Of a stretch of DNA of 64,000 nucleotides, positions 17,926-31,978 are shown in pieces. The stretch lies in contig NZ_JACBZP010000001.1 of assembly GCF_013409065.1 (NCBI RefSeq), positions 2,800,518-2,864,517 on the forward strand, in the 5' to 3' direction. Below the pieces are notes generated by a model. It saw only the letters and a program-made list of their open reading frames with translations, ran no database searches and was not told the DNA's origin. The position numbers and the translations under genes are program-made. The DNA comes from Spelaeicoccus albus. GTDB taxonomy: Bacteria > Actinomycetota > Actinomycetes > Actinomycetales > Brevibacteriaceae. The stretch's first letter is position 1. The number at the start of each line of letters is the position of its first letter.

Positions 17926-19341
17926 TCAGCCGGGCAGGTCGAGTTTCAGCAGTGCGTTCTCGATCACTTCGGGCAGCGCCGGGTGGATCCAGTACTGGCC
18001 GTGCGCCATCGCCTTCGCGTCCAGGCCGAAGGACATCGCCTGAATGAGCGGCTGAATGATCATGGACGCTTCCGGGCCGAGGATGTGCGCGCCAATGAGT
18101 TGTCCGCTGTCGCGGTCGGCCAGTAGTTTCACGAATCCCGTCGTGTCCTCGAGAGCCCAGCCGTACGCGACGGCACCGTAGTCGTGTGTTGCGACAACAT
18201 AGCTGCGCCCGTCGTCGTGGGCTTCCTGCTCGGTCAAGCCGACCGAGGCGATCTGAGGATGCGTGAATACGGCCGACGGCACGTACCGGTGGTCCGAAGC
18301 GGTGAGATGATCGGGATCGATCAAATTGGCTTGGACGACCCGCGCCTCGTGATTTGCCACGTGTTTGAGCTGATACGGGCTGCAGACGTCCCCGAGCGCG
18401 AACACGTCGTCCTGCGCAGTGCCGCCGCTGAGAACCCGCTGGAACTCGTCGACGGCGATCCTGCCGTCCGCGTGCATGTCGATTCCGGCGTTGTCCGCGC
18501 GGAGCAGATCGCCGGATGGACGGCGTCCGCTGGCCAGCAGGAGGGTGTCGGCGGCAAGCGTCGTGACGGCGCCGTCAGCGGACCGGTAGTCGACTTCGAC
18601 GCCGTCCGAACCAGTGCGCACGGCAGTGACCTGCGCGTTCAGGTGGACGTCCCAGGATTCGCGCGCGCATTCGGTGAACCGTTCGGCTATTGCGGCGTCC
18701 TGATGGCGCAGCAGGGGAGCGGAACGGGCCACGACGGTCATCGACGTGCCGAGCGCCGAAAAGACGTGCGCCATTTCGGCGGCGATGTACCCGCCCCCGA
18801 GCACGATCATCGACCCGGGCAGCTCAGCCAACCGCATGACGGTGTCGGACGAGTGGATGCGTGAGCCGGGCGCGCCGACTGCGGCTGCATCCAGTCCATC
18901 GATGTCGGGGACGATGACGCGGGAGCCCGCCGCTATGACGAATCGGTCAGCCGTGAGGACGCGGCCGCCGGCAGTCGTGAGCTCGCGGCGTCCGGTGAAC
19001 TCGGCGTGCTCCGGATACACCGTCACATTGGGCAGCCGCTCGCTTCGGTAGGAACGGCCGTCGCTTTCGATCGGGTCGATTCGACCGAAGACGCGTTCAC
19101 GGATGTCCGGCCATCGCACCCCGTCGACGTGTGCGTCGACACCGTAACGGGAGCTATCGCGTGCCGTACGCGCCACCTCGGCGGCATACACGAACATTTT
19201 CGTCGGAATGCAGCCGGTGTTCAGGCAAGTACCGCCGAAGAGTCCTTGTTCGATGATCGCCACCGAGAGGTCGTCGAATCGGTCGTCGACGATCGAATTG
19301 CCCGAGCCGGTTCCGATGACTATGAGGTCGTAATGGGTCAT
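17926..19341 (-). CDS. mtr: Mycothione reductase
   Basis: A 471-residue FAD-dependent pyridine nucleotide-disulphide oxidoreductase that reduces mycothiol disulphide with NADPH, keeping the cytoplasmic thiol pool reduced. The redox pair is in GGTCLNTGCIPTKM, the NAD(P)H Rossmann motif is VLGGGYIAAEMAH, and the C-terminal interface motif HPALPEVIENALL holds the catalytic His/Glu. IGTGSGNSIVDDRF near the N-terminus separates it from dihydrolipoyl dehydrogenase, which is present elsewhere in this window. The enzyme is diagnostic of mycothiol-making actinobacteria. Confidence 0.93.
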   Translation of the reverse strand: MTHYDLIVIGTGSGNSIVDDRFDDLSVAIIEQGLFGGTCLNTGCIPTKMFVYAAEVARTARDSSRYGVDAHVDGVRWPDIRERVFGRIDPIESDGRSYRSERLPNVTVYPEHAEFTGRRELTTAGGRVLTADRFVIAAGSRVIVPDIDGLDAAAVGAPGSRIHSSDTVMRLAELPGSMIVLGGGYIAAEMAHVFSALGTSMTVVARSAPLLRHQDAAIAERFTECARESWDVHLNAQVTAVRTGSDGVEVDYRSADGAVTTLAADTLLLASGRRPSGDLLRADNAGIDMHADGRIAVDEFQRVLSGGTAQDDVFALGDVCSPYQLKHVANHEARVVQANLIDPDHLTASDHRYVPSAVFTHPQIASVGLTEQEAHDDGRSYVVATHDYGAVAYGWALEDTTGFVKLLADRDSGQLIGAHILGPEASMIIQPLIQAMSFGLDAKAMAHGQYWIHPALPEVIENALLKLDLPG

Positions 19342-22443: not shown

Positions 22444-23451
22444 TCAGCGACGCGCGCTGAGCAGAGCGGACGCTTCCTGCCGGGCCGGCATATCGCGGTC
22501 CAAATGCGACAAATGCTCCGGGATGTCCCACCCGCGGCGGCGCATGGCACCCGCCCACAATTTTCCCGCGCGGTACGACGAGCGCACCAGCGGGCCCGAC
22601 ATGACGCCGAGGAATCCGATCTCTTCGGCTTCTTTTGACAGCGCGACGAATTCCTCCGGCTTCACCCAACGATCGACGGGATGGTGACGCGGAGACGGGC
22701 GCAGGTATTGCGTAATGGTGATGATGTCGGTGCCGGCGTCGTGCAGCGCCTGCAGGGCTTCAACGACTTCTTCGTACGTCTCGCCCATACCGAGAATCAG
22801 ATTCGACTTGGTGACGAGTCCGTTGTCCCGGGCCTTGGTCAGCACCGAGAGCGAACGGTCGTACCGGAACCCCGGGCGGATGCTCTTGAAAATCCGCGGC
22901 ACTGTCTCGACATTGTGCGCGAGCACCTCGGGCCGCGAGGAAAACACTTCGGCCAGCTGGTCGTCGTTCGAATTGAAGTCCGGAATCAGCAATTCGACGC
23001 CGGTGCCCTGATTCAGGCCATGGATGCGTCGTACCGTTTCGGCATACAGCCACGCGCCGCCGTCGTCCAGGTCATCACGGGCAACACCGGTGATCGTGGA
23101 ATAGCGCAGACCCATATCGGCCACCGATTCGGCCACGCGCCTCGGCTCGTCGGTATCCAACGGCGACGGCTTGCCGGTGTCGATCTGACAGAAGTCGCAT
23201 CGACGCGTGCACTGCGAACCGCCGATGAGGAACGTCGCCTCGCGGTCTTCCCAACATTCGAAGATGTTCGGGCAACCGGCCTCTTCGCAGACTGTGTGCA
23301 GCCCTCCGGATTTGACAAGGTTTTTCAGGTCTTTGTACTCCGGACCCATTTTGGCGGTGGTCTTGATCCACTCTGGCTTCTGCTCGATGGGAGTTTCGGC
23401 GTTGCGCGCTTCAATGCGAAGCAGTCGCCGTCCCTCTGGCGCAATAGTCAC
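22444..23451 (-). CDS. lipA: Lipoyl synthase
   Basis: A 335-residue radical-SAM enzyme that inserts two sulphurs into octanoyl groups on lipoyl domains. The N-terminal auxiliary cluster cysteines are in [14 protein letters not shown], and the radical-SAM cluster is in CTRRCDFCQ. The C-terminal SSYRAG carries the serine ligand of the auxiliary cluster. The start is GTG with an AAGGAG ribosome-binding site about 9 bp away. It follows lipB by 72 bp and its products SucB and GcvH are clients; sucB is at 30191. Confidence 0.97.
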
Positions 23452-23523: not shown

Positions 23524-24216
23524 TCAAGAGACGACGTTAGCCAGGTCACCATCGGGGGCTGGACTGCTGCTCGGAAAATACCGCGGCATGACCTCGCGCA
23601 CGGCAGCCGCCGCATCGTGCGGTGTGACGTCGCGACCGGTCTCTTCACTGAGCGATGCCACGCCGGCATCGGTGATACCGCACGGCACGAACGTCGAGTA
23701 CGCCTCCAGCGAGTTGTCGCAGTTCAACGCAAATCCGTGCATCGTCACATTTGCTGCTACCCGGATCCCGATGGCGGCGATCTTCCGCGCCGGCCGAGCG
23801 CCCGAACCGGCCGCGTCCGCCGGGAGCCACACACCCGATCGCCCTTCGACCCGTTCGCCGGGGACGCCGAACCGCTCGCACACATCGATGAGCATGGCCT
23901 CGAGCGTGCGTACGTACTCGACGACGTCGACGGGGTCGGGCAGCCGCAGGATCGGGTAGCCGACCAGCTGTCCGGGGCCGTGCCACGTGATCTTACCGCC
24001 GCGGTCGGCGTCGATGACGGGGATGTCGCCGGAGGGGCGTTCCCAGTCCTCGGTACGCTTGCCCGCCGTGTACACCTCGCGGTGTTCGAGCAAAAGCACC
24101 ACGTCATCGGCCGTACCGGCCGCCACGTCGGCGTGAACGGATCTTTGCAGGGCGAGTGCTTCGGTGTAGTCGACGTAGTCGGGCGCCAGCCCGACGGTGC
24201 GAAAGCCAAGTGCCAT
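23524..24216 (-). CDS. lipB: Lipoate-protein ligase / octanoyltransferase
   Basis: A 230-residue enzyme that moves the octanoyl group from acyl carrier protein to the lipoyl-domain lysine. The motif [18 protein letters not shown] holds the conserved lysine and histidine region, and KIAAIGIRV and MHGFALNCD with the catalytic cysteine-lysine dyad follow. [11 protein letters not shown] is the C-terminal signature. The ATG at 24216 was chosen over an upstream ATG, since the codons above it show no family similarity. It is upstream of lipA and probably co-transcribed. Confidence 0.93.
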
Positions 24217-24308
24217 AGCCGATACTGTACGCCCACCGGTCGCCGAGATTACGGATACGTAAATCATCAACGCTTGTCAAACGATAACAAACAACATCAT
24301 AATGAAGC

Positions 24309-25832
24309 ATGGAAAAGGGAGGAAGGTCACATTCACCCGAGCTGCCGGGTTACGAGATCCTCCGCCGGATCAACAGGGGCGACGCGATTGCCGGATATCT
24401 GGCGACGGATGCGGACGGGCATCGGGTCGAGTGCCTCGTTGCTCAGTCATCCGAAGCAAAGTCGCCGGTCGTCGATGCGCCCGGCGAGCCGGACGTCGCG
24501 CACCCCCATCTCGCCGAATTGCTCGACGTCGTCCAGAGCGCCGGCGGAGAGTCCGCAGTCGTCATCGACTATCTGCAAGGGGGCACTCTCTCGGCGCTGG
24601 TGCGCGCCGTTGGAGCGTTGAGCCTCGGACAGGTGATCACCGTCATGGAGCCGATCGCCTCCGCCGTCGGGTTCGTGCACGAGCAAGGATTCTGCCACTC
24701 GGCAGTCAGCGCCGAGTACATTTTCGTGGCGGCCTCGGGGCTGCCGAAGATCTTGGGGCCGGCCGCCGTACGGGCGTTGGGCGTCGGTTCCGGCGAAACA
24801 GCGGACGCCGGCCGGCGCGCCGACGTCCGCGCACTGGGAGCACTGGCCTGGACACTGCTGACGGGGCACGAGCCGCCGGTCGGCCGGATCAGGCCGCCGA
24901 TCCGCGTGTACCACCCGGAGCTTCCCGAACGTCTTGTCGAGGCCATTGAAGACCCGGCGCAATTCACCGCTGCCGGATTCGCCGAGACCGTGCATACCCT
25001 TGCCGTGTCGGAGGCGGACGCCGCGCCGGCCCCGTTGCGGCTCGTCCGTACCGACGCGCGCGAACCGAGCAGTGATGCCCTCACGGCTCAACTACGCCTG
25101 TCCGCCGGCGCCGGGCGAGCGGGGGCGGGCCCGCCGACCGGTGCCGAAAAGACAGGGGAGGAGCGATCGGGCCCCCGGCCGGCGGCCGGCCGGCTTGCGG
25201 GTATCGGCGCCCGACAACGACGCCGGGGACGGCACAGACGACGCGGCCGCCGCGCACTTGTCTGGCCGGCCGTCGCCGCCGTGCTGGCCTGCGCCGTCGC
25301 AGTGACGGCGTTCATGGTCGGCGCGGGTGAATCGTCCGGCCCGGAACCGACCGGCCCGGAACAGATCGGCAACGACAAGACCCTCGCCGCGGAGCCCGCC
25401 GGCGCGCGGGATCACACGCCATCCGCGGAAATTCCGGCACACATCGGCGCGGCCGCCGCCTCGGCCAAACCACTACGCGCCGTCACCGGATTGGTCTGGA
25501 TCCGCGCGGACATGTTCGGGAACGCCGATCGGTCACGGCTGGAGCTACTTGACGCACCGCATTCGACGGCCTGGCGGGAGGACGCCGGCAAGCTTCGAAC
25601 GCTGAGACGCGCCGGGTCGAAGCTGGAGGGATTGCACATGAGTCTGTTGTCGGCCGAACGGATCGCACAAAGCAGCGCGCGCGCCGTCGTTGCCGTGACC
25701 GTCAAAACCAGCGCCTATCGGCAGGTTGACGACGCCGGTCACACCATCGCTCGCAAAGCCGCCGCTATCGCATCGCACCGGCTGACCTTGGTGCGCCGCG
25801 ACGGCCGATGGCTCATCTCGGCGGTTCGATAG
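24309..25832 (+). CDS. Membrane-anchored pseudokinase
   Basis: A 507-residue protein. Residues about 12-235 have the layout of a Ser/Thr protein kinase (GYEILRRINRGDAIAGYLAT, VIDYLQGGTLSALV, then GFCHSAVSAEYIF). The key catalytic positions are lost: no glycine-rich loop GxGxxG, no lysine in VECLVAQ, the HRD aspartate is Ala132 (HSA), Tyr137 stands where N is expected, and LGP replaces DFG. A basic stop-transfer RRRGRHRRRGRRA precedes one transmembrane helix (317-338). Residues 340-507 would be outside the cell and end RLTLVRRDGRWLISAVR, like an NTF2-type fold. No close functional match is known to me. Confidence 0.75.
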   Translation: MEKGGRSHSPELPGYEILRRINRGDAIAGYLATDADGHRVECLVAQSSEAKSPVVDAPGEPDVAHPHLAELLDVVQSAGGESAVVIDYLQGGTLSALVRAVGALSLGQVITVMEPIASAVGFVHEQGFCHSAVSAEYIFVAASGLPKILGPAAVRALGVGSGETADAGRRADVRALGALAWTLLTGHEPPVGRIRPPIRVYHPELPERLVEAIEDPAQFTAAGFAETVHTLAVSEADAAPAPLRLVRTDAREPSSDALTAQLRLSAGAGRAGAGPPTGAEKTGEERSGPRPAAGRLAGIGARQRRRGRHRRRGRRALVWPAVAAVLACAVAVTAFMVGAGESSGPEPTGPEQIGNDKTLAAEPAGARDHTPSAEIPAHIGAAAASAKPLRAVTGLVWIRADMFGNADRSRLELLDAPHSTAWREDAGKLRTLRRAGSKLEGLHMSLLSAERIAQSSARAVVAVTVKTSAYRQVDDAGHTIARKAAAIASHRLTLVRRDGRWLISAVR

Positions 25833-25837
25833 TCCGG

Positions 25838-26725
25838 CTAGCCGGCCAGCCAGCGGGCAGCGGACCCGATGTCCGGATGGGCGAATTCAAATCCGGACGC
25901 CGTCAGCGCGGTCGGCACGGCGCGCGTGCTGGCCAAGATGTCGGCCGCGAAGCCGTCGACCGCCGCGTGCAGCGCCCAGCCGGGGACGGGCAGCGCGGCG
26001 GGCCGTCCGAAGGCGCCGGCCAAGGCCCGGATGACTCGCTTGTTGCGCTGCGGCTCCGGTCCGACGAAGTTCACCGGCCCCGAAATCGTCTCGTCGGCGA
26101 CCACGTGCGCGTATGCCCGGGCAACATCAGCGAGCGTGATCCACGGCCACCACTGCCGTCCCGTCCCGAGCGGTCCGCCGAGCCCGGCACGTAAGAGCGG
26201 CAGCATTTTCCCCGCGGCGCCGCCGCCCGTTCCCAACACGATTCCGGTTCGGGCCCGGACGGCACGCACGCCGGCCGGGAGCTGCGAGGCCGCGGCTTCC
26301 CACTCGCGGCACACATCCGCCAGGAACCCCGTCCCGATCGGTGCGGCCTCGGTCAGAACCTCGTCGCCCCGGTCGCCGTAGAACCCGACGGCGGACGCGT
26401 TGACGAACACCCGCGGCGGCGAGGCGACCCGTCGAACGGCGTCCGCGAGCGTTTGGGTGGTATCAACGCGGGACGACACGATGAGATGCCGATAACGCGA
26501 CGTCCACCTGCGGTCGGCCACCCCCGCGCCGGCCAAGTTGATCACGGCGTCCGCGCCGTCGATGATGGCCTCATCCAGGCTGTGCCGGGCCGGATCCCAC
26601 TGTTTCTCGAGCCGACTGGCCGGCGGACGCCGCACCAGACGCACGGTGGAGTGCCCGGCCTCGGCAAGACACCGCTGAAGCTCCGACCCGACGAAGCCGC
26701 CGACTCCCGACAGAACTATCTTCAT
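25838..26725 (-). CDS. TIGR01777-type NAD-dependent epimerase (YfcH-like)
   Basis: A 295-residue extended SDR protein. The Rossmann motif is VLSGVGGFVGSELQRCL at the N-terminus, with NLAGAGVADRRWT and NASAVGFYGDRGDE (the family YG) next, then WPWITLADVARA and a C-terminal SDR tail. The reaction is unknown; it is annotated as an NAD(P)-sugar or cell-division-inhibitor homologue by family. It ends 5 bp from the pseudokinase stop codon in convergent orientation with no room for a terminator. Confidence 0.85.
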   Translation of the reverse strand: MKIVLSGVGGFVGSELQRCLAEAGHSTVRLVRRPPASRLEKQWDPARHSLDEAIIDGADAVINLAGAGVADRRWTSRYRHLIVSSRVDTTQTLADAVRRVASPPRVFVNASAVGFYGDRGDEVLTEAAPIGTGFLADVCREWEAAASQLPAGVRAVRARTGIVLGTGGGAAGKMLPLLRAGLGGPLGTGRQWWPWITLADVARAYAHVVADETISGPVNFVGPEPQRNKRVIRALAGAFGRPAALPVPGWALHAAVDGFAADILASTRAVPTALTASGFEFAHPDIGSAARWLAG

Positions 26726-26788: not shown

Positions 26789-29700
26789 ATGAATATCTCC
26801 GGAACCGATGGATACCTGCGATTTCCGCACGTGCGCGCCGGCCTGCTCACGTTCGTCGCCGAAGACGACCTGTGGCTGGCCGACACTGACGGGTCCGGCG
26901 CGGCCCGCATCCTCAGCCTCGACGCGCCGATCAAGAACCCCCGCATCACCCCGGACGGCCGGTCGATAGTCTTTGGCTGCGTTCAGGGTGCAGCCCCCGA
27001 GATTATGAGACTCGACCTGGCCGGAGGGCCCGTCACGCGCCTGACGTACTGGGGCAACGCCAAGACGGCGATGCGGGGCTTTACCCCCGGCGGTGACGCG
27101 ACGGTCATCAGCGCGTGGGCCGAACCCAACGCGCGCGAGCCGGTGGCCTGGGCCGTGCCCCTGGACGGAGCGGCGGCGCGTCGCCGCGGGTTCGGCCCCA
27201 TGGAAGGCATTGCCGAAGAGGACGGACTGATCGTCTTGTCGACGGCGCTCTCGCGCGAGCCCGGCTGGTGGAAACGATATCGCGGCGGCACAGCCGGCCG
27301 GTTATGGCGCGGCACCAGCGAGGACGGCGAATTCACGCGCCTGGTGCCCGAGGTTGACGGAAACCTCACCGATGCCATGATCGTGGGTGACCGAATCGCT
27401 TTCTTATCCGATCACGAGGGGTACGGAAACCTGTACTCGGTCGATGCGGACGGCACCGGACTGCGCCGACATACTGATTTCGACGGGTTCTATGCCCGTC
27501 ACGCCTCGACGGACGGCACCCGGGTGACGTTCGAAAACGCCGGCAGACTGTACATGCTGGAATCACTGGACGCCGAAGCGGAGCCGCTGTCCGTCCGGCT
27601 GCCAAGCGGCGGAGGCATGATCCGACGTCGCCGAATCGACGCGGCAGCGCACCTGGGCGATGTTCGGCCGGATGCGAGCGGGCGGGCCAGCGCGGTCGAG
27701 GTGCACGGCACCGTGCACTGGCTGACCCACCGTGACGGTCCGTCGCAGGTCCTCGAGGCGGAAGACGGCGTCCGGTCCCGAATGGCACGACCGGTCGGGT
27801 CTGACGCCGTGATCTGGGTGTCCGACGAGGGCGGCGAGGAATCTCTTCGCCTGGCCCGGCGATTGCAGCCGGCGGAGCACACGGTTGCCGAGGTTCCGGG
27901 CGGGCCGGTGCGCTATTGCGCCATCGAGGTCTCGGCCGGGGTGCCGGAGGCCGGACAGCCGGTGACGCTGGCCGTCACGACCGAGCAAGGCTCCACGTAC
28001 CTGGCGGACGTCGACGACGACCTCCGCGTCGGGAGCTGGCGGGAGATCGTAGCGAGCGCGTCACCGGTCGAGCAGCTCGCCTTCAGCCCGGACGGCGCTT
28101 GGCTGGCGTTCGTCGATCCGGTCGACAACGAGGGCCGCGGATTTCTGTCGCTGGCCGATGTGAGGACCGGCGCCGTCACCCGGATCACCGATGGGGCGTA
28201 CCGCGAGCATTCGCCGGTGTTCACGCGGGATGGGAAATACCTGGCGTTCTTGTCCGATCGGAGCCTTGACCCGACGTACGACGCCCAGCGGTTCGACCTG
28301 GGCTTCCCGGCATCAACGAAGCCGTATCTTGTGGCATTGGCCGCCGGTACGCCGTCCCCGTTCGGAGCGGCTGTTGAGGGGCGCGCTCCCGCCGGCGGCC
28401 CGGATTCCACGGCCGGGAGCTCTTCGGCGAACCCGGCCGCCGAGAAGACGCCGGCAACCGACTCTCCTCGGCCGCGCACGATCGTCGACGTGGACGGACT
28501 CGGCGACCGCATGTTCCCGGCACCGGTCGACCAGGGAGTGCTGGGGGACTTGCTGGCGGCGCCCGGCGCGTTGCTGTGGATCCGGCGCACTGTGGCAGGC
28601 ACGACCGGCGACGGACAATCGGCGCCGGGCGAACCGACGGCGACCGGCCCGGTGCTCCGGTTGGATCTCGGCAGCGGCAAATGCGACACGGTGCACGACG
28701 ACGCGGACAGTATCCGTGCGAGCGGGGACGGCACGCGCATGGTCGTGCGCGGCGCCGAGAAGGTCCGGGTGATGCCGACGTCGGGCAAGGTTGACGATGA
28801 TTCACCCGACAAGGTCACGCTTGACGTCGAAAGGATCCGACTCGACATCGACCCGCGTTCGGCGTGGCGGCAGGCATTCGACGAGGATTGGCGATTGATT
28901 CGCGACTTCTTCTGGATCGACGATCATGGCGGTGTCGATTGGCCGGCCGTTCACGGCGCGTACCGCCCGCTGATCGAACGCATCGGCAGCGACGACGACC
29001 TTGTCGACGTGCTGTGGGAGATTCACGGCGAGCTCGGCAGCTCGCACGCGTACGTGATGCCGCAGCCGGCCACGAGCGACCGCGAAGGCGTACAAGGCCT
29101 GTTGGGGGCCGACTACGAGCAGACCGTTGACGGCTGGGTGGTCGCGACGATCTTGTCGAGCGAGTCGTCCGATCCGCTGGCGATGTCCCCGTTGCGAGCT
29201 GCCGGCACGGACGTTCGCGAGGGCGACGTACTGGTGAGCATCGATGGTCGGCCGGTGGACCATCGAGGGCCGAACGCCCTGTTGACCGGTGCGGCCGGAA
29301 AACCCGTGCTGCTCGGCGTCCGGCGCCCGGCCGATCATGCCGGCGAGGGCGCCGAGAAGGCCCCGACCCGCAGCACGGTTGCCGTGCCGATCGGCAGCGA
29401 GGCGCGCCTGCGCTATCAGCAATGGGTGAAGCGCAACCGGGCGCGCGTCGTCGAAAGCTCGCACGGCGCGTTCGGCTACCTGCACGTGCCGGACATGGTT
29501 GCCACCGGATGGGCGCAGCTGCATCGTGGTCTGCATACGGAAATGGCGAAGGCCGGCGTGATCGTCGACGTACGCGGCAACAGCGGCGGCCACACCTCGC
29601 AGCTCGTCGCCGACCTGATAGGCCACCGGATCGATGCGTGGACGACGATCCGGCACGGCGATCCCAACCCGTATCCGGCCGATTCTCCGCGCGGCCCCGT

Positions 29701-30103
29701 CGTGATAGTCACCGATGAATTCGCCGGGTCGGACGGCGACATCATCACCGCCGTCTGCAAGATCCGCGGAATCGGACCCGTCGTCGGTACCCGCACGTGG
29801 GGTGGCGTGATAGGGATCGACGGCCGGTTCACGCTTGCCGACGGGACGGGGGTGACTCAACCGCGCTATTCGTTCTGGTTCGCCGGCGGACTCGGGTGGG
29901 GCGTCGAAAATTACGGCGTCGACCCGGACATCGAAGTCGTATTCGCGCCGCACGATCACAAAGCCGGGCGCGACCCGCAACTCGACCGGGCGCTCAGCGA
30001 ACTCGGGTCACGGGTCGCCGACAATCCCGGAGTGCCGGCGCCGGATCCCCGCTCCCGTCCGAATCGTGCGCCGGGACCGCTGCCGCCGCGCCCGGGCAGC
30101 TGA
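26789..30103 (+). CDS. tri: Tricorn protease homologue
   Basis: A 1104-residue S41-family peptidase that cleaves oligopeptides downstream of the proteasome or Lon. Beta-propeller repeats, e.g. PRITPDGRSIVFG and SPDGAWLAFVDP, fill residues 1-650. A PDZ domain lies near 790-855 and the catalytic part is at about 670-1060. Catalytic residues align as His753 (GSSHAYV), Ser981-Asp982 (GSDGD) and Glu1040 (GVENYGVDPD). A loop of about 90 residues around 520-590 is a Pro/Ala/Gly-rich insertion, and the C-terminus is a Pro/Arg-rich tail. No signal peptide; it acts in the cytoplasm. Confidence 0.92.
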   Translation: MNISGTDGYLRFPHVRAGLLTFVAEDDLWLADTDGSGAARILSLDAPIKNPRITPDGRSIVFGCVQGAAPEIMRLDLAGGPVTRLTYWGNAKTAMRGFTPGGDATVISAWAEPNAREPVAWAVPLDGAAARRRGFGPMEGIAEEDGLIVLSTALSREPGWWKRYRGGTAGRLWRGTSEDGEFTRLVPEVDGNLTDAMIVGDRIAFLSDHEGYGNLYSVDADGTGLRRHTDFDGFYARHASTDGTRVTFENAGRLYMLESLDAEAEPLSVRLPSGGGMIRRRRIDAAAHLGDVRPDASGRASAVEVHGTVHWLTHRDGPSQVLEAEDGVRSRMARPVGSDAVIWVSDEGGEESLRLARRLQPAEHTVAEVPGGPVRYCAIEVSAGVPEAGQPVTLAVTTEQGSTYLADVDDDLRVGSWREIVASASPVEQLAFSPDGAWLAFVDPVDNEGRGFLSLADVRTGAVTRITDGAYREHSPVFTRDGKYLAFLSDRSLDPTYDAQRFDLGFPASTKPYLVALAAGTPSPFGAAVEGRAPAGGPDSTAGSSSANPAAEKTPATDSPRPRTIVDVDGLGDRMFPAPVDQGVLGDLLAAPGALLWIRRTVAGTTGDGQSAPGEPTATGPVLRLDLGSGKCDTVHDDADSIRASGDGTRMVVRGAEKVRVMPTSGKVDDDSPDKVTLDVERIRLDIDPRSAWRQAFDEDWRLIRDFFWIDDHGGVDWPAVHGAYRPLIERIGSDDDLVDVLWEIHGELGSSHAYVMPQPATSDREGVQGLLGADYEQTVDGWVVATILSSESSDPLAMSPLRAAGTDVREGDVLVSIDGRPVDHRGPNALLTGAAGKPVLLGVRRPADHAGEGAEKAPTRSTVAVPIGSEARLRYQQWVKRNRARVVESSHGAFGYLHVPDMVATGWAQLHRGLHTEMAKAGVIVDVRGNSGGHTSQLVADLIGHRIDAWTTIRHGDPNPYPADSPRGPVVIVTDEFAGSDGDIITAVCKIRGIGPVVGTRTWGGVIGIDGRFTLADGTGVTQPRYSFWFAGGLGWGVENYGVDPDIEVVFAPHDHKAGRDPQLDRALSELGSRVADNPGVPAPDPRSRPNRAPGPLPPRPGS

Positions 30104-30190: not shown

Positions 30191-31978
30191 TTAGAGGCCG
30201 AGTTCCGACTCGAACGCGCCTTCTTCCAACCGTGCCTTGATGGTCTGCAGGAATCGGCCGGCGTCCGCACCGTCAACCAGACGGTGATCGTACGTCAGCG
30301 GAAGGTACATCATCGATCGGATAGCGATCGAGTCGTTACCGTCCTGATCCGTCACCACGACCGGGCGCTTGACGATGGCGCCGGTGCCGATGATGCCGAC
30401 CTGAGGCTGGTTGATGATCGGAGTGTCGAACAGAGCGCCGACGCTACCGATGTTCGTGATGGTGAACGTGCCGCCGGACAACTCGTCCGGGCCGATCTTG
30501 CCCGTCCGCGTGCGCTCGGCCAGATCCGTGATCTTGCCGGCGATACCGGCCAGGCTCAGATCCCCGGCATCCCGAATGACCGGGACGAGCAAGCCGCGCT
30601 CGGTGTCGACGGCGACCGCCAAATGCTCCGCATCGAAATACGTGATCTCGTGAGAATCCCCGTCGTAGGCCGCGTTCACCTTCGGGTGGTTCTTCAACGC
30701 TTCGACGACGGCCTTGGCGATGAACGGCAGGAACGAGAGCTTGACGCCCTCGTTTTCCAAGAACTTCGCCTTCGCCTTGGCCCGGAGAGCGGCGACACGG
30801 GTCATGTCGACCTCGACCGTCGACGTCAGCTGGGCCGACACCTCGAGCGATTCCTTCATCCGCTTGGCGATCGTCTGCCGGATGCGCGGCGCCTTTTGGA
30901 CGGTGCCGCGCAACTTGGCGGCTTCGTCGCTGATCGCGGCCGGCGCGGCGGGAGCCTTGGCGCCGGACTTCTGCGCAGCATCGAGCACATCCTGTTTACG
31001 GATTCGGCCGCCGACGCCGGTGCCGGTCAGCGACGACAGATCGACGTTCTTTTCGGCAGCGAGCTTGCGCACGAGCGGCGTGACGTAGCCGCCGCTGTCG
31101 ACCGCGGCACGCGGTGCGGACGACGCGGACTTGGACGAGCCGGCCGCGGACGACGCAGGCTTGGAGGACGGTTCCGGTGCGGGCGCTTGCGGCGCCGGTG
31201 GGGCCGTCTCCTGTTCGACTGCGGCGCTCGGAGCGGCCGGAGCGCTTTCCTGCGGCGCAGCGGGAGCCGGCTCCGGTTCCGGCTCGGGCTCCGGCTCCGG
31301 TTCGGGCTCGGGACTGTCTGCGGCCGGTTCGGAAGCCGAGTCCGCCGGGGCGCCTGAGCCGACGACGGCCAGCGCGGCGCCGACCTCGACAGTCTCGTCT
31401 TCGCTGACCAGAATCTTTTGCACGGTACCGGCCAGCGGCGACGGAATTTCGGTGTCCACCTTGTCGGTCGAGACCTCGAGCAGCGGCTCGTCGACATCGA
31501 CCTGATCGCCGACCTCCTTGAGCCATCGCGTCACGGTGCCTTCCGTGACGCTTTCGCCCAGGGCCGGCATCGTCACTTCGGACCCGTCGTCCGATCCGCC
31601 CTGCTCGGATGAGGCGGACGGCGCTGCGGCTTCGGCTGCGGGCTCTTCGGCTTCCTGTTCCGGCTCGGCGGCCGTGTCGGGCTCTTCGGCTTCCTGCGCC
31701 GGTTCGGCAGCATCGGCCGACCCGCCGTCGTCCGCACCGGAGCCGTCGCCGATCACGGCGAGATCGGCGCCGACCTCGACCGTCTCGTCCTCGTCGGCGA
31801 GGATCTTCTCGACGGTGCCGGCGTACGGCGAGGGGATCTCGGTGTCGACCTTGTCGGTCGACACCTCCAGTAACGGTTCGTCTACCTCGACCTGCTCACC
31901 CACCTGCTTGAGCCATCGTGTCACTGTGCCTTCTGTGACACTTTCGCCAAGTGCAGGCATCTGCACGGAGTTCGACAT
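30191..31978 (-). CDS. sucB: 2-oxoglutarate dehydrogenase E2 (dihydrolipoamide succinyltransferase)
   Basis: A 595-residue E2 subunit with two lipoyl domains (Lys43 and Lys173 in [12 protein letters not shown]), an E3-binding domain ([16 protein letters not shown], about residue 300) and the CoA-acyltransferase domain ending in [14 protein letters not shown] with the catalytic His. The linkers are very acidic and Pro/Glu/Ala-rich, including an [12 protein letters not shown] run. The two lipoyl domains are nearly identical and exactly 130 residues apart, a sign of recent duplication. lpdA lies directly upstream and lipB/lipA within 8 kb. In actinobacteria this protein may serve both pyruvate and 2-oxoglutarate dehydrogenases. 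Confidence 0.92.

Follow-up and report, generated by a model that had tools for sequence, protein, structure and literature searches.

To our knowledge, bacterial pseudokinases have been little studied and their families are mostly known in dead form. Among the described ones, MviN (ActPs3) combines a dead kinase domain, in which bulky aromatic residues fill the ATP pocket, with a deleted activation loop, a C-terminal transmembrane helix and a back-to-back dimer, and the M. tuberculosis protein has an outer domain as well; EssB/YukC of type VII secretion is a single-pass pseudokinase with a shortened activation loop, and scaffold roles are described for both MviN and EssB (PMC12599244, in excerpt). 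In another group of receptors, an inner kinase is joined across the membrane to an outer NTF2-like domain (DUF4878, DUF3828 or DUF3887), which is proposed to bind ligands and act as the sensor (PMC3924330, in excerpt). The PASTA kinases PknA and PknB likewise place a kinase inside and a sensor outside, and the plastid division proteins ARC6 and PARC6 carry an intermembrane domain that also lies beyond a membrane.

The protein described here is encoded in a stretch of 64,000 nucleotides from Spelaeicoccus albus (positions 2800518-2864517), which we call the window. In architecture and pseudokinase status it belongs to known kinds. Like MviN, it has a dead kinase domain with all three motifs degraded, an activation-loop deletion and a C-terminal transmembrane helix; unlike MviN, it has no linkage to MurJ, its outer domain is NTF2-like and not of the carbohydrate-binding type, and many members at its locus keep catalytic residues. 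With the NTF2-like receptors it shares the layout of inner kinase and outer putative ligand sensor, but in its family the kinase is repeatedly dead or deleted and the locus is fixed, and the window domain reaches no Pfam NTF2-like cut-off. PknA and PknB are among its best structural and sequence neighbours, with the same fold and the same inside-outside arrangement, yet the window protein has no catalytic residues, and those of its relatives that keep the aspartate have HGD, HAD or HSD, not HRD. Pfam gave no match to PASTA repeats in the window protein, where the outer domain is NTF2-like instead. EssB/YukC, for all its likeness, is a Firmicutes secretion component, whereas none of nine neighbours scanned in the window is a secretion gene by NCBIfam. 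ARC6 and PARC6 provide the closest fold to the outer domain, at 12-15% identity.

Other families differ in their signatures. ActPs2 proteins have the lysine changed to arginine, the HRD aspartate changed to asparagine and long insertions, where the window protein has Leu43, HSA and no long insertion; the DYD and GLW families carry these motifs in place of DFG and HRD, where it reads LGP and HSA; and ActPs1 has its own family profile, three catalytic substitutions and often a C-terminal PQQ-type domain, a domain that Pfam does not find in the window protein. An active Ser/Thr kinase would have the β3 lysine, the HRD aspartate and the DFG aspartate, and these positions hold Leu43, HSA and LGP. 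In the open-licence literature searched, we found no description of the fixed locus, the repeated switching-off or the three deletions reported below.

The protein and its parts

The reading frame is open throughout, from its ATG to its stop codon (Table 1), and its GC content by codon position (0.74/0.57/0.78) follows the same pattern as in three neighbours measured; the ORF is real and coding-like. Judging from the spacing of a promoter-like site, transcription would start at about the ATG, possibly giving a leaderless transcript. The starts of lipB and of this gene, as listed, are 38 bases apart (24270-24309), and the two may share a divergent promoter.

Table 1. Features of the gene and its surroundings (window coordinates)
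Feature	Position	Strand	Basis
CDS, 507 aa: kinase fold, linker, probable transmembrane helix, NTF2-like outer domain	24309..25832	+	ORF; orthologues at the same locus
Promoter-like site TTGTCA-18-CATAAT	24274..24303	+	1 found vs 0.1 expected in shuffles
Degenerate protein-kinase domain, residues 10-245	24336..25043	+	Pfam profile, AlphaFold2 model, structure match
β3 lysine position, Leu43	24435..24437	+	family alignment
HRD position, HSA, residues 130-132	24696..24704	+	sequence
Catalytic-loop asparagine position, Tyr137	24717..24719	+	alignment, sequence
DFG position, LGP, residues 149-151	24753..24761	+	alignment, sequence
Linker motif LTAQLR, residues 258-263, common to part of the family	25080..25097	+	sequence comparison
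Probable transmembrane helix, residues 321-339; basic residues precede	25269..25325	+	hydropathy and charge
NTF2-like outer domain, residues 378-507	25440..25829	+	profile, predicted fold, structure matches
lipB, divergent neighbour	23524..24270	-	NCBIfam
lipA, lipoyl synthase	22444..23451	-	NCBIfam
TIGR01777 family oxidoreductase, other flank	25838..26725	-	NCBIfam
sucB, 2-oxoglutarate dehydrogenase E2, actinobacterial type	30191..31978	-	NCBIfam
Mycothione reductase	17926-19341		two NCBIfam equivalogs above cut-off

The N-terminal part of the protein scores above the Pfam cut-off for PF07714 (28.1 bits against 23.1) and below that for PF00069 (28.3 against 31.7). An AlphaFold2 model, built on a 14-row alignment, has a mean pLDDT of 75.9 and a pTM of 0.55, the kinase part lying mostly at 80-97, and this part resembles PknB (1mru_B) with a VIA-align Z of 20.2 and an rmsd of 3.2 over 222 residues. 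Taken together, profile and predicted structure make the protein-kinase-like fold (Pkinase clan) more than chance, as the initial annotation had expected. The annotation had also reported the loss of the glycine loop, the ATP lysine, the HRD aspartate, the loop asparagine and the DFG motif, and all of them are indeed missing. Two further losses had escaped it: the activation segment after LGP is deleted, at a place where aligned relatives have GTxGYxDP, and the model has no helix between β3 and β4, in the place of αC, where residues 55-59 fall below a pLDDT of 50. Loss of catalytic residues does not prove that ATP binding is lost.

Beyond the kinase domain, the linker carries LTAQLR, whose threonine and the hydrophobic residue three places on are common to part of the family. 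The strongest hydrophobic stretch follows at residues 321-339 (Kyte-Doolittle mean 2.38) and leaves 168 residues after it, which agrees with the single transmembrane helix and some 165 external residues first proposed. We base this probable helix on hydropathy and charge because the model drops below a pLDDT of 50 across the membrane stretch. A second, weaker stretch (1.62 at residue 94) was taken as soluble because it falls within the kinase domain, in a part modelled as helical. Across 126 loci, arginine and lysine together average 4.3 in the 15 residues before the hydrophobic stretch and 1.2 after it, a charge pattern that fits a topology with the kinase inside and the NTF2-like domain outside; the stretch itself reaches at least 1.3 in 108 of these loci and is unclear in the other 18.

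The outer domain was modelled alone from a 72-sequence alignment and reached a pLDDT of 96.3. The intermembrane domains of ARC6 and PARC6 come closest in fold, at Z 12.1 to 13.6 (best match 5d9r with Z 13.6 and 15% identity, rmsd 2.4 over 117 residues), and other top matches include the CaMKII hub, Tim44 and NTF2-like proteins; such PDB matches show fold only, and unlisted families may also match. On the strength of the model we are confident that the domain has an NTF2-like alpha+beta fold. The initial annotation was right that an extracellular domain is present but overlooked this identity, that of a conserved NTF2-like domain. The ARC6-like_IMS family (PF13355) gives the window domain 18.2 bits, below its cut-off of 22.8, and matches 7 of the 72 outer-domain members at E 0.1, the best at 7e-6; none of the Pfam NTF2-like models reaches its cut-off on the window domain. 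PARC6 itself is present in the PDB in complex with its partner PDV1 (5u9o, 6jzn).

The same outer-domain profile also finds DUF6318 (PF19843) proteins (L211:2241-2951, L212:7499-8101, L213:3646-4218, L214:2449-3204, L215:2607-3353), all five of which scored above the DUF6318 cut-off when scanned. Unlike the window protein, they are without a kinase part and sit at other loci. By eye, four of the five (not L215) show a lipobox-like stretch, which suggests lipid-anchored paralogues of the outer domain.

A fixed position between lipB and sucB

An initial search with the window protein gave matches covering most of it in a few relatives; their surroundings placed the gene between lipB and TIGR01777/sucB, and whole-protein and outer-domain profiles then widened the search. 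Loci were picked by profile and not by place; five other kinases and two off-locus outer-domain proteins were then set aside. Within the stretches taken, at least one of lipB, TIGR01777 and sucB occurs in 125 of the 126 classified loci besides the window. The gene lies between lipB and TIGR01777 or sucB in every one of the 92 loci that have lipB and one of the other two, and its strand is opposite to that of lipB (94/95), TIGR01777 (78/79) and sucB (116/116). By outer domain, position and opposite strand, the window protein is itself a member of this lipB-sucB locus family of membrane kinases and pseudokinases. In relatives, lipA and glnA are often near the locus as well.

How widely is the gene found? 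In a scan of named genomes, 74 of the best 80 of 412 relatives have an in-frame outer domain together with a locus marker; in the other six, three frames reach the end of the stretch and three are without an outer domain shown. Among these best 80 of 412 are Arthrobacter, Pseudarthrobacter, Knoellia, Phycicoccus, Terrabacter, Ornithinimicrobium, Geodermatophilus and Kineosporia. The outer-domain profile matches in 51 of 51 genomes of the window's own family (f1), and this tally, like those of 113/149 and 76/148, is an upper bound for the locus gene that may include paralogues. The whole-protein profile, at 149/149, is uninformative because general kinases match it. The idea that genus g2 of f1 lacks the gene proved wrong: 20 loci of f1 were read, with sucB in 20/20 and lipB in 18/20.

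Neighbours were named from NCBIfam; those that we call RDD, DUF4191 and tricorn presumably belong to these families. Between the TIGR01777 gene and sucB, positions 26789-30103 encode a 1104-residue protein with sub-threshold TolB-propeller and S41-peptidase matches, which we take to be tricorn-like. Its kin occur near the locus in several loci of family f6 (L035, L079, L085, L094, L108).

Repeated loss of the catalytic site

In a kinase-domain tree of 87 rows, 73 family rows fall on one side of a branch (100/99), and PASTA kinases, other kinases and one MurJ-linked pseudokinase lie outside it. The window domain pairs with that of G003, from its own family (98/90), on a long branch (1.18). Of the 73 rows in this first set, 62 keep the HRD aspartate, 62 the loop asparagine, 55 the DFG aspartate and 40 the lysine; 40 have all four. 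The members that keep the aspartate have HGD, HAD or HSD, and often DLG in place of DFG, and are therefore only putatively active kinases.

Over 127 classified loci, the HRD aspartate is kept in 67 and lost in 51, and the kinase domain is absent from 9; "kept" refers to this aspartate alone, other residues being gone in some (L226, L231, L232; rows of f3, f9 and f13), and the state was read by eye at 54 loci and from the alignment at 73. Dropped before the count were L044 and L193, both at a contig end (the former a C-terminal half, the latter with an N run), L201 and L202 (without a matching ORF), L243 (kinase part unreadable), L230 and L233 (outer domain present, off locus) and, as other kinases, L038, L042, L043, L122 and L138, of which L122 lies near an acyltransferase match and was taken as a paralogue. 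The nine kinase-less proteins are short, consist of a hydrophobic stretch and the outer domain, and form three groups (G012 and G020 in f1; G038 and G151 in f3; five loci in f45).

The initial annotation had named close relatives that keep the catalytic residues as evidence against it, and the answer differs between two families. In f1 none of the 22 classified loci keeps the HRD aspartate (lost in 20, domain absent from 2); in f6 it is kept in 8 of 9 and lost in 1. We placed these families on a tree of SucB and LipB, for which the gene itself was not used (116 rows, quick search without bootstrap; 11 of the 127 loci were left out, having no usable SucB). There, SH-aLRT gives full support to a group made up of 22 f1 rows and 5 f6 rows (4 keepers and 1 loss), although its inner branch order is without resolution and f1 is not recovered as one clade. 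Since keepers from f6 group with f1, the catalytic site was probably lost on the window lineage and not always dead.

On the same tree, the distribution of kept and not-kept states takes at least 13 changes and the absence of the kinase domain takes three, counts that cannot tell loss from regain; loss is the simpler account because other orders have intact-looking members at this locus (L238, L244). A single clade of all 57 not-kept rows was rejected, with a log-likelihood 392 lower and a p-AU of 4e-39. Thus, the catalytic site has been disabled repeatedly and independently in this locus family. The initial annotation had overlooked two things, a locus fixed across many families and the deletion of the kinase domain in three lineages that keep the outer domain.

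The dead domains compared are not free to drift. Their dN/dS in lineages other than the window's is 0.13-0.44 (8 pairs), against 0.11-0.26 for domains that keep the aspartate (6 pairs); linkers range over 0.18-0.61 in all 14 pairs and outer domains over 0.10-0.51, values from pairs that share members and that in some cases show high synonymous change. The kinase domain lies below its own linker (0.25-0.51) in all dead pairs but one of the 8, the exception being L183/L185 (0.32 vs 0.28). Over all pairs the domain is more constrained than the linker in 12 of 14, with L127/L129 joining L183/L185 in the reverse order. Even the worn copies of genus g2 give 0.13-0.32 for the kinase domain (five pairs). 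Dead kinase domains are under purifying selection in these other lineages.

Possible function and competing readings

We think it probable that the window protein works as a non-enzymatic, single-pass membrane receptor or scaffold. The outer NTF2-like domain would bind either a small ligand or some other protein of the envelope. Passage of the signal through the membrane helix would probably involve a change in oligomer state, and a cytoplasmic partner would dock on a surface of the dead kinase domain, with no phosphate being transferred by the protein of the window lineage. The architecture, the missing site, the family, the repeated loss and the purifying selection elsewhere were computed, and from them we infer the binding, the coupling, the docking and the identity of the partners. 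A non-catalytic role is favoured because dead kinase domains of other lineages show purifying selection. In this respect the membrane pseudokinase with an outer domain of the initial annotation stands, its proposed role resting on selection in other lineages and not in the window's own; the cell-wall or lipid partner that it suggested finds no support in our analysis. Three lineages do without the kinase domain, and the core function therefore cannot depend everywhere on the domain's scaffold role.

More tentatively, we envision that the core function may lie in the membrane-anchored NTF2-like domain and that phosphotransfer was never needed for it. The kinase fold would then serve as an inner docking module that can be exchanged; at one locus it would have been switched off some ten or more times and removed three times, and across actinobacteria the protein would connect an envelope sensor with the lipoate/2-oxoglutarate dehydrogenase region. 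At one chromosomal position the kinase is found intact-looking, dead, worn or deleted, a natural experiment in which related bacteria can be compared directly for what a kinase fold does without catalysis. The identity of the NTF2-like domain, in turn, opens a testable ligand or partner hypothesis for a widespread actinobacterial membrane protein.

It is unlikely that the kinase domain is a decaying relic, with only the helix and the outer domain mattering and a deletion still to come, as in three lineages. The nine kinase-less loci of 127, with three changes on the tree and with outer domain and locus kept, are what such decay would leave behind, and genus g2 carries a domain too worn for the search with the window protein to find the gene. 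But frames remain open, and the dN/dS of the eight (overlapping) dead-kinase pairs speaks against decay.

We give slightly less credit to a direct metabolic role, in which the protein would report an outside cue to 2-oxoglutarate/lipoate metabolism, either by binding a GarA/OdhI-like FHA protein at Thr259 of LTAQLR or by acting on the adjoining E2/lipoylation machinery. FHA binding follows a pT+3 rule, which the linker pattern T-x-x-(L/I/V/M)-R resembles. This pattern occurs in 36 of 111 linkers against a shuffled mean of 7.8, an enrichment that is biased because the pattern was written after seeing the sequences, and 75 of the 111 are without the motif as written. A tie to lipoylation or 2-oxoglutarate dehydrogenase is hinted at, though not shown, by the fixed locus, whose neighbours are lipB, TIGR01777 and sucB and often lipA and glnA; yet fixed gene order may have other causes, and the gene is not in an operon with lipB, TIGR01777 or sucB because it lies on the opposite strand.

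A place among the MviN-type (ActPs3) pseudokinases, as a regulator of the lipid II flippase, is very improbable, in spite of the degraded motifs, deleted loop and C-terminal helix shared with the protein of PMC12599244 (in excerpt). Pairing the window protein with a relative's MurJ-linked pseudokinase lowers the log-likelihood by 22 and is not rejected by the AU test (p-AU 0.137), in a comparison with one MurJ-linked row and two long branches; but in the tree it groups with the locus family (100/99) and is not sister to that row. MviN is fused to or beside MurJ, whereas the MurJ of this genome (G000:C1:930185-931564; another match at 3662198-3663574) lies about 1.9 Mb away, with a large ORF of its own after it. 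BLASTP of the window protein to such post-MurJ ORFs was not significant (E 12 in its own genome and E 1.4 in the relative, the latter along the kinase region). The ORF directly after MurJ (L155:2175-4730, or G000:C1:931674-934229) has a sub-threshold F5/8-type C match near its end (27.0/28.2 bits), and a Pfam scan of it found no kinase domain; from its position and the sub-threshold match, it is probably a separate MviN-type regulator of the host genome.

Hardest of all to credit is a cryptic enzyme that would use ATP in an unusual way, as SelO and SidJ do. SidJ is named among pseudokinases with other functions (PMC12599244, in excerpt), but here the lysine, aspartates, asparagine, glycine loop and activation segment are gone, and no confident αC is left. 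A defence-system kinase was set aside, as the PADLOC matches (PD-T4-6 and others) fall largely on the region of general kinase motifs.

Elsewhere, L230:3771-5666 joins a canonical HRDLKPSN kinase to the same outer domain, with no lipB, TIGR01777 or sucB in the 7.5 kb taken. The host genome also encodes three PASTA kinases with strong Pkinase matches (L156:1397-3358, L156:3352-5241, L157:798-2801), which are possible active partners.
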